Source: Leptolyngbyaceae cyanobacterium MP9P1.79 (GTDB taxonomy: Bacteria; Cyanobacteriota; Cyanobacteriia; JARCMD01). Taken from it: DNA of 48,207 bases. The notes beneath the pieces were generated by a model. That model ran no database searches and was not told the DNA's origin. It worked only from the letters and a program-made list of their open reading frames with translations. The stretch spans positions 1 to 48,207 of the forward strand of contig JARCMD010000079.1 in NCBI GenBank assembly GCA_030248885.1, given 5' to 3'. This document shows, one piece after another, positions 43,549 to 46,081 of the stretch (its first letter is position 1; the number at the start of each line of letters is the position of its first letter). The position numbers and the translations under genes are program-made.

Positions 43549-45591
43549 ATGCTGTCTTTTTTACAAACCCTTCGAGAGACCTTGGCCCGCTGGTGGTCAG
43601 AGTTTACGCTTCAGACTAAATTGATGGCTGTGGCGACTTTGGGAGTCTCGCTCATTATGAGTGGGGTTACGTTTTGGGCAGTCAACAGTATTCAGCAAGA
43701 TGCTCGACTGAGTGATACTCGGTTTGGGCGAGATTTAGGGTTGTTGCTCTCAGCGAACGTCTCTCCCTTAGTGAGTGAGAATAACCGCACAGAACTGGCG
43801 CGTTTTTCCCATCGCTTCTACAGCAGCACTTCTAGCGTTCGCTACATGATTTATGCTGATGAAGATGGGGAAATTTTCTTTGGGATTCCTTTTTCTGAGT
43901 CGGAAGTGCAAAACTCACTGACGATCCGCCGCCATATTCAACTCCCCGATGATTTTGCTCGGCACACGGAATTACCAATGGTGCGGCAACATTTAACGCC
44001 CGATGGGGAAGTGACGGATGTGTTTGTGCCGTTGCTCCATGACGGCAAGTATTTAGGGGTGCTGGCGATCGGGACTAACCCCAACCCTACGGTGGTTACC
44101 TCTTCTCACCTGACTCGTGATGTGACGATCGCAGTCTTCGTCTCTATTTGGGTCATGGTCATTCTAGGGGCAGTGATTAATGCGCTCACCATTACGAAGC
44201 CGATTAAGGAATTGCTCGTCGGTGTCAAAAATATTGCCTCTGGTAACTTTAAGCAGCGAGTAGACCTGCCCTTGGGAGGGGAACTGGGCGAATTAATTCT
44301 CAGTTTTAATGAGATGGCAGAACGCCTGGAAAGCTATGAAGAGCAGAATATCGAAGAGTTGACGGCAGAAAAAGCCAAGCTAGAAACCTTGGTCTCAACG
44401 ATCGCCGATGGGGCAATTTTGCTCGACACCAACCTGCAAGTAGTGCTGGTAAATCCCACTGCCCGTCGGATCTTTGGTTGGGAAGGGCTGAATCTTTCCG
44501 GCGTGAATATTCTGCATCATTTACCTACTCCAGTCCAATCCCAACTGGGGCATCCATTATATCAATTGGCAGCGGGAAGCATTCCCAAGACCTTGCCTGC
44601 AACAGACGACTCTCTACCTCCAGACGGCAAACATGATTTACCAGAGAGCGATACGTTGCGCGATGGAGCCGAATTTCGGTTGACGCTCTCTGAACCCACA
44701 AACCGCACCATTCGGATTTTGCTGACTACGGTGTTCGATCAGTACCGGGAAAACCTGAAGGGCATTGCGATGACCGTGCAAGATATTACCCGTGAAGTGG
44801 AATTAAATGAAGCCAAAAGCCAATTTATCAGCAATATTTCCCACGAGTTAAGAACGCCCTTGTTCAATATCAAGTCGTTTATTGAAACCCTCTATGAGTA
44901 TGGCGAAGAGTTGAGTGTGGACGATCGCCGAGATTTTTTAGACACTGCTAATAAAGAAACCGATCGCCTGACTCGCCTGGTCAACGATGTTTTAGATCTA
45001 TCTCGGTTAGAGTCCTGTAAGCGCTATATTCTGGAGTCGATCTATCTCGCCCAGCCTGTGGAGCAAACTCTCCGCACCTATCAACTCCATGCCAAAGATA
45101 AAGGCATTGAGCTAAGCCAGGATATTGCCGTAGACTTGCCTCCAGTCTTGGGTAACTACGACCTCCTGCTGCAAGTGTTCTCCAACTTAGTGGGGAATGC
45201 TCTGAAATTCACGCCAACTGGGGGCAAGGTCGTGATTCGGGCCTATTTACTCGATCGCCCGTCACCTACCGAAGCCACACCATCCCAAGCTCCCAAAGTT
45301 CGCATCGAGATTTCTGATACTGGAATTGGCATCGACCCAGAAGACCAGGACGCAATTTTCGATCGCTTCTTCCGCGTGGAAAACCGAGTTCATACCCTTG
45401 AAGGCACGGGATTAGGATTATCGATCGTCCGCAATATCGTCGAACGACATCATAGCAAGGTGCATTTAGTCAGTGAAGTTGGCGTAGGAACAACCTTCTG
45501 GTTCGATGTGGCGGTTTCCCAAACGGAGTCAGGCACTACCGAGACTAAGGAGTTGGCTCCGGCTGTTACAGAGGCGATCGGAGTGTTTTGA
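43549..45591 (+). CDS. nblS: Sensor histidine kinase NblS (Hik33/DspA family)
   Basis: NblS/Hik33 is the conserved cyanobacterial thylakoid/plasma-membrane kinase that acts with RpaB in high-light, nutrient and cold responses. The 680-residue protein has TM1 (about 25-47), an extracytoplasmic sensor domain (about 48-195), TM2 (about 196-218), HAMP (TKPIKELLVGVKNIASGNFK), PAS (LETLVSTIADGAILLDTN), a HisKA domain with H432 (SNISHELRTPL) and a HATPase domain with N, G1 and G2 boxes (VGNALKFTP, DTGIGIDPED, GTGLGLSIV). The N-terminus WWSEFTLQTKLMAVATLGVS is characteristic. Element E and its hairpins lie about 110 bases upstream. Confidence 0.95.
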   Translation: MLSFLQTLRETLARWWSEFTLQTKLMAVATLGVSLIMSGVTFWAVNSIQQDARLSDTRFGRDLGLLLSANVSPLVSENNRTELARFSHRFYSSTSSVRYMIYADEDGEIFFGIPFSESEVQNSLTIRRHIQLPDDFARHTELPMVRQHLTPDGEVTDVFVPLLHDGKYLGVLAIGTNPNPTVVTSSHLTRDVTIAVFVSIWVMVILGAVINALTITKPIKELLVGVKNIASGNFKQRVDLPLGGELGELILSFNEMAERLESYEEQNIEELTAEKAKLETLVSTIADGAILLDTNLQVVLVNPTARRIFGWEGLNLSGVNILHHLPTPVQSQLGHPLYQLAAGSIPKTLPATDDSLPPDGKHDLPESDTLRDGAEFRLTLSEPTNRTIRILLTTVFDQYRENLKGIAMTVQDITREVELNEAKSQFISNISHELRTPLFNIKSFIETLYEYGEELSVDDRRDFLDTANKETDRLTRLVNDVLDLSRLESCKRYILESIYLAQPVEQTLRTYQLHAKDKGIELSQDIAVDLPPVLGNYDLLLQVFSNLVGNALKFTPTGGKVVIRAYLLDRPSPTEATPSQAPKVRIEISDTGIGIDPEDQDAIFDRFFRVENRVHTLEGTGLGLSIVRNIVERHHSKVHLVSEVGVGTTFWFDVAVSQTESGTTETKELAPAVTEAIGVF

Positions 45592-45637
45592 GGATGATGG
45601 ATTAAATCAATAGTTCGGACATTTTTGCGATAGTTAG

Positions 45638-45912
45638 CCCTCATCCCCCAACCCCTTCTGCCAGAACGGGAGAAGGGGAGCCGGATTGAAGTCCCTCTCC
45701 CCTCTTGGGCTTGTCATTACCAACATTTTTGAGAAATCGAAGATTTCTCAAAAATGTAAATTCTAAAACCCAATGCCTTCGTTACTAACTGTCAATAAGT
45801 GGTTACTATTGAGAATAGCAACATAGTCTAGAAACCTGACTGTGCAGGCTTTTTAAGAGATATTGGTAATGGCAAGCCTCTTGGGAGAGGGATTTAGGCT
45901 TCGACGTGAGCG
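45638..45912. repeat. Repeat of the CCCTCATCCCC family, interrupted by a MITE
   Basis: The arms 45638-45709 (CCCTCATCCCCCAACCCCTT ... CCCTCTCCCCTCTTGGG) and 45886 onward (AGAGGGATTTAGG) form one copy of the palindromic family also seen in elements A and C. It is split by the 167-bp element D. Confidence 0.7.
45710..45876. mobile_element. MITE-like element D, 167 bp, with 9-bp target duplication
   Basis: The ends are 14-bp inverted repeats with one mismatch (CTTGTCATTACCAA and, reversed, CTTGCCATTACCAA). CCTCTTGGG is duplicated at 45701-45709 and 45877-45885. A perfect 16-bp hairpin (45723-45738 with 45742-45757, loop GAA) lies next to the left end. The element encodes no protein and is inserted in another repeat. 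Confidence 0.85.
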
Positions 45913-46081
45913 CTCAGCCGAACGGTGAGGGTCTATCCTGGCTGTACAACAGGGTTTCCAGAACCTCCACAAAAACTGTCCGAAGTATTGTTAAATAACA
46001 CCCCTGCTAAATCTCGAACTCGTCAGGAATTCGCAGCTAACCAACGCTGCACCTTTGCAACTGCATCTCTACAGGATCTCG

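Follow-up and report, generated by a model that had tools for sequence, protein, structure and literature searches.

Insertion sequences (ISs) of the IS50 subgroup of the IS4 family are described as having the end consensus CW------Y---CA-A--W-, a size of 1350-1550 bp and direct repeats of 8-9 bp, and for the IS4 family a YREK signature, Y(2)R(3)E(6)K, is given (De Palmenaer et al. 2008, PMC2266710). Targets of Tn5 carry G-C pairs at the ends of the 9-mer and have a palindromic character, and for ISRm22, an IS4-family element of Sinorhizobium meliloti, nine of nine copies were found inside REPs (Tobes and Pareja 2006, PMC1525189). In cyanobacteria, the MITEs Nezha, MITEb and MITEe of Anabaena and those derived from ISSoc2 have been reviewed in a text that makes no mention of IS4 (PMC10969869). 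The same review cites the case of IS1111 in QMITE2 of Coxiella, in which a mobile element targets the palindrome of a MITE.

Here, we describe a 167-bp element without a gene, D, in a contig of Leptolyngbyaceae cyanobacterium MP9P1.79; the whole stretch of DNA analysed, referred to as the window, is the entire contig C219 of 48,207 bp. We consider it very probable (about 0.9) that D is a MITE that arose by internal deletion from a cyanobacterial IS50-like IS of the IS4 family, that it is moved by the transposase of such an IS in trans and that it is directed to a hairpin. By description only, and not by sequence, D resembles the cyanobacterial MITEs mentioned above in being short, non-autonomous, bounded by inverted ends, multi-copy and mostly intergenic. 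Like ISRm22 and other REP-targeting ISs, the D family provides an example of IS4-family copies in a repeated palindrome, with a palindromic 9-bp target that has G-C pairs at its ends (PMC1525189). It differs from ISRm22 in that its members are MITEs with far more copies, and in that the palindrome is part of another transposon-like repeat of which one of two adjacent hairpins is picked. IS1111 in QMITE2 belongs to another IS family with another mechanism, and two cases are known there compared to dozens for the D family.

Element D and the repeat that it interrupts

D occupies positions 45710-45876 (+ strand) of the window, drawn with its hairpin end, corresponding to the 3' end of the IS, leftmost, and is flanked by two identical copies of the 9-bp target-site duplication CCTCTTGGG at 45701-45709 and 45877-45885. 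The left inverted end, CTTGTCATTACCAA (45710-45723, + strand), is followed by CATTTTT, as in the IS 3' end on contig C341, and the right inverted end (45863-45876), read on the - strand as CTTGCCATTACCAA, is followed by TATCTCTTAA, compared to CATCTCCTAA in the IS 5' end on contig C552. Between the two ends (CTTGTCATTACCAA and TTGGTAATGGCAAG), 13 of 14 bases pair, the sole mismatch being T versus C at base 6. A perfect 16-bp subterminal hairpin, ACATTTTTGAGAAATC-GAA-GATTTCTCAAAAATGT, with a loop of three bases lies at 45723-45757 (+ strand) and is kept across the D family. The coordinates and letters given in an earlier note on this DNA are correct. A scan of the 48-kb window for pairs of identical 9-mers, spaced by 60-420 bp and directly enclosing 14-bp inverted ends, gave the D locus as its sole match, and 40 dinucleotide shuffles, scanned with a less strict setting, yielded no such arrangement. 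No open reading frame of at least 90 aa overlaps D, whose 167 bp could encode 55 aa at most. Thus, D is short, lacks a transposase gene and has inverted ends and a target duplication, and it also occurs in many copies at different sites and shares its ends with an IS; these features bear out its earlier description as a MITE, i.e. a non-autonomous IS derivative.

The sequence around D is itself a transposon-like element in its own right. This host element, of type A, spans 45608-45990 (+ strand; about 200 bp without D), has the inverted ends CAATASTTCGGACA around a CCCTCATCCCC core and is flanked by the 6-bp duplication TTAAAT at 45602-45607 and 45991-45996. The hairpin hit by D has its left arm GTCCCTCTCCC at 45691-45701 (+ strand) and its right arm GGGAGAGGGAT from 45883. 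Removal of D plus one copy of its duplication gives CCCTCTCCCCTCTTGGGAGAGGGATTTAGG, in which the second hairpin of the CCCTCATCCCC repeat is unbroken, just as it is in empty copies elsewhere in the genome, so that the proposal that excision would rebuild a standard member of this repeat family holds. In the empty copies of the same genome (L273-L292), the CCCTCATCCCC core consists of two hairpins in tandem and is bounded by inverted ends of no fewer than three kinds, namely type A (CAATASTTCGGACA), type B (TAGGCGATGTGCAACTT) and type C (GGAGCATCTCAGTTTTG), as if the core were the common property of three mobile element families. The 6-bp duplications of type A include TTAAAT, ATCCAT and TTAGCT.

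The window thus records two steps. A type A element first landed 3' of a gene for a sensor histidine kinase (43549-45591), creating the duplication TTAAAT and beginning about 10 bases after the stop codon, and D entered the second hairpin of this element thereafter, creating the duplication CCTCTTGGG. Since D lies within the host element and inside the TTAAAT duplication of the latter, D is the later arrival, as had been proposed. At loci matching the kinase in 22 of 29 other genomes, neither D nor type A ends were found, these genomes being class-level kin and too distant to serve as empty sites. The reverse nesting, a type A element within a D-type MITE, is present as well (L299, from position 1627).

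A probable partner insertion sequence of the IS50 subgroup

The earlier note had expected a transposase, or a matching IS, elsewhere in the genome. Searching for DDE-family transposases led to one half of an IS on contig C341, and a full-length relative used as query led to the other half on contig C552. The C552 half starts with CTTGTCATTACCAACATCTCC, and CTTGTCATTACCAACATTTTT on C341 is the 3' end of the IS. If both halves belong together, the IS measures 1450 bp without an inserted repeat, which lies within the 1350-1550 bp of the IS50 subgroup. The left end of D (CTTGTCATTACCAACATTTTT) is identical to the IS 3' end across 21 bases, and the right end (CTTGCCATTACCAATATCTC) differs from the IS 5' end at two of 20 bases. 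Within the shared end, the transposase reading frame stops (GAA AAA TGT TGG TAA TGACAAG). The interior of D has no evident similarity to the IS, so that the deletion is not traceable.

The 191-aa tail of the transposase on C341 matched the Pfam domain Dimer_Tnp_Tn5 (PF02281; 1.9e-6) as well as DDE_Tnp_1, and the Tn5 transposase in PDB (4e-19). The YREK signature, Y-x2-R-x3-E-x6-K, is present as YACRWLIEEYHRCLK, and the DDE residues are found as D in DTTEL, D in GDRESD and E in IEEYH. The IS end CTTGTCATTACCAACATTTT agrees with six of the seven consensus positions of the IS50 subgroup, having A instead of C at position 13, and the end of a relative from another genome (CTATCCATTACCCACATCTT, L246) agrees with all seven. 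In other genomes, full-length relatives are bounded by similar ends and by 9-bp duplications (L246: CTATCCATTACCCACAT with CTTAAAAAG; L248 and L259: CTGACTATTACCCA with GGCTTTGCC), and the MITEs likewise have 9-bp duplications, within the 8-9 bp of the subgroup. Judged by the subgroup definitions in PMC2266710, the partner IS falls into the IS50 subgroup. Together, D and the IS are like the subgroup and Tn5 in the 9-bp duplication, ends starting with CT, the YREK signature, the DDE residues, the Tn5 dimerisation domain and the IS length, and are unlike the subgroup in that D is geneless and in that base 13, one of the seven conserved end positions, is A in both D and the IS. In addition, the target preference of the D family is not that of the classical Tn5 consensus. 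Numerous PF01609 matches lying at the ends of contigs in genome G094 were rejected as belonging to a different transposase without D-type ends.

The partner transposase gene (L272 58-1047 and L222 4135-4780) is broken by a frameshift in its N-terminal half at about residue 143 of the homolog and by a CCCTCATCCCC-type repeat near residue 292, which both halves carry with the duplication CCTCAGCAG. In this respect, the copy seen departs from the subgroup, for which a transposase gene without frameshift is stipulated. We read these interruptions as decay or assembly error, since full relatives such as L246, L234 and L259 are uninterrupted. No matching pair of duplications was seen around the two halves, the outer flanks being CCAATTCTG and GTCTTGAAA, and these unlike flanks may reflect two related copies or a single rearranged one. 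The expectation of an IS with a transposase elsewhere in the genome was borne out by the IS on C552 and C341. The only one seen is split over two contigs by the inserted repeat and is broken, and no intact transposase gene was seen in the assembly of this genome. An intact, collapsed copy may nevertheless exist in the genome, as the assembly seems to lack contigs shorter than about 3 kb.

The D family and its target

The genome assembly, which is 89% complete and has 552 contigs totalling 4.89 Mb, was searched for the 17-base end CTTGTCATTACCAAYAT with at most one mismatch, yielding 70 + 65 = 135 matches, compared to none for the reversed pattern. The search proposed in the earlier note thus revealed an abundant family, of which about 125 ends and 24 complete copies were inspected. 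Numerous contigs stop 30-100 bases within an element, as is expected where repeats broke the assembly. The complete copies fall into size classes of 167 bp (D and L002-L005), 209-249 bp and 332-333 bp. An exact 9-bp duplication flanks 15 of the 24; in two others the duplication has a single mismatch, and in one it is shifted and 10 bp long. The 333-bp class corresponds to the 167-bp type plus an extra inserted repeat (GAGGCTGTCTGA..TCAGACACCCTC). This third repeat was observed inside the copies L009, L010, L017, L020 and L027 and seems to have spread together with the 333-bp class. The forms of 226-249 bp lack part of the left interior and look like later deletion derivatives. A still shorter form of 86 bp (L128, 714-799) has the ends CTGACCATTACCAACATT and CTTGTGATTACCAGTATCT and a perfect 9-bp duplication, CAGGACAAG.

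Across 389 other genomes of the class that were searched, the D-family end is scarce; in the scan of named genomes, one lone end was found in Hydrococcus rivularis and no complete element. Together with the gene content, this lone end would fit a cyanobacterial source of the DNA. Other genomes of the class hold MITE-like elements with the ends CTTGTCRTTACCCACATTTTTG (L185, L183 and L187), one of which has internal tandem repeats and no gene. A 1175-bp element with similar ends (L185, 2227-3401, in G190) is not taken as a full IS, because it has internal tandem repeats and lacks a transposase.

The exact duplication around D had been taken as a sign of recent movement, which is not supported: the nearest copy, L002, is 96% identical to D over the element, the other 167-bp copies are 79-82% identical, and the sole matching IS seen is broken in this assembly. 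An exact 9-bp duplication can persist by chance for a long time and is thus no proof of recency, although it fits a fairly young insertion of D.

Nesting, as seen for D, is the rule for its family and not an accident. Of the two hairpins in the CCCTCATCCCC repeat, the second (CCCTCTCCC..GGGAGAGGG) carries 84 of the 116 ends sampled, at its tip, and the first (CCTTCTCCC..GGGAGAAGG) four, with 28 located elsewhere. This sample is not wholly unbiased, as some ends were retrieved by queries with flank bases, but even with every one of the approximately 35 remaining ends placed elsewhere, the share of the hairpin would still exceed one half. Both hairpins are plentiful in the genome, with 195 exact intact copies of the second (CTCTCCCN3-7GGGAGAG; none for the reversed-pattern control) and 253 intact copies of the first, so that the ratio of 84 to 4 is not due to availability. 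The distance of the insertions from the CTCTCCC arm peaks at 6 (39 ends) and 8 (24 ends), i.e. one base on each side of the dyad. The first base of the 9-mer is C in 87 and the last base G in 96 of the 116 ends, and these palindromic 9-mers bounded by C and G agree with the descriptions of Tn5 and ISRm22 targets.

Three other accounts of these data have to be weighed. In the first, the concentration in one hairpin would reflect nothing but survival, the host repeat being a safe place in which insertions persist while gene-damaging ones are lost; selection against insertions into genes is general, and the sampled repeats appear to be mostly intergenic. Survival would however scatter insertions over the whole repeat, and what is seen is 84 at one point against four in a neighbouring hairpin that is at least equally common, with offsets grouped within a few bases of the dyad. 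As the only cause we consider it very unlikely; survival between genes may contribute to the pattern, yet it predicts no single point. We give even less weight to the possibility that D and the host repeat travelled as one composite, so that the nesting would be a single old event that was copied thereafter. The same arrangement does occur in many copies with similar flanks, into which the matches run. However, D-family insertions are found in both orientations and in hosts with unlike ends, empty hosts are frequent, and copies outside the repeat have duplications of their own (CCTTACAAC in L032 and CAGGACAAG in L128). Since the 9-bp duplications differ (CCTTTTGGG, CCTTCTGGG, CCCCTGCTG, CTTGAGAGA and others), the composite is refuted as a general account.

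The least probable of the three, in our view, is that D is a REP- or REPIN-like or regulatory repeat spread by something other than an IS4-family transposase, such as a TnpA-REP single-strand nuclease. The conserved hairpin, with paired changes in some copies, would suit such a repeat, but D has inverted ends and 9-bp duplications, and both of its ends match the IS50-like IS. REP-type elements are not known to have target duplications of this kind.

These results suggest the following mechanism for the preferred reading of D as an IS50-derived MITE. An IS50-like transposase would act in trans on the shared ends of 14-20 bp, excise D and join it to the target through a 9-bp staggered cut, i.e. 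by cut and paste as in Tn5. Dyad-symmetric 9-mers bounded by C and G, CC[CT]NNN[AG]GG, would be preferred, and the second hairpin of the CCCTCATCCCC repeat would offer hundreds of them and act as a landing pad distant from genes. The family may now be idle in this genome, as the IS copies seen are broken. The loops of the first and the second hairpin differ, so that loop sequence is a third candidate basis for the choice beside bases and hairpin shape. Rather doubtfully, one may go further and suppose that the transposase reads not just the bases of its target but the shape of an extruded hairpin or cruciform together with its loop, and that its insertions are for this reason confined almost entirely to one hairpin tip in a co-resident transposon. 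The transposase gene would be hit by the host repeat in return, in a kind of mutual parasitism between two families of mobile elements.

The D family is a new MITE family of a familiar kind, and ISRm22 in REPs is an earlier example of an IS4-family element that targets palindromes. The noteworthy part is the degree and precision of the hairpin preference, which is unusually strong; the remainder of the case is ordinary mobile-element biology. A high-copy cyanobacterial MITE family is hereby linked to an IS family via both ends, and its more than 100 insertion ends form a natural data set in which a Tn5-like system favours one of two near-identical hairpins over the other by a factor of about 20, so that it becomes possible to test what governs the choice of targets by IS50-type transposases.

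Subterminal hairpin of the MITE

The 16-bp stem is perfect in 36 of 45 copies of the MITE, and some copies have paired changes in the stem, e.g. ACATCTTTGGGAAATC/GATTTCCCAAAGATGT in L027. Of the loops, 27 read GAA and 17 its reverse complement TTC, and both are found in both stem subtypes. The loop thus seems to have been inverted repeatedly, as would result from template switching within the hairpin, and this may tell more of DNA repair than of function.
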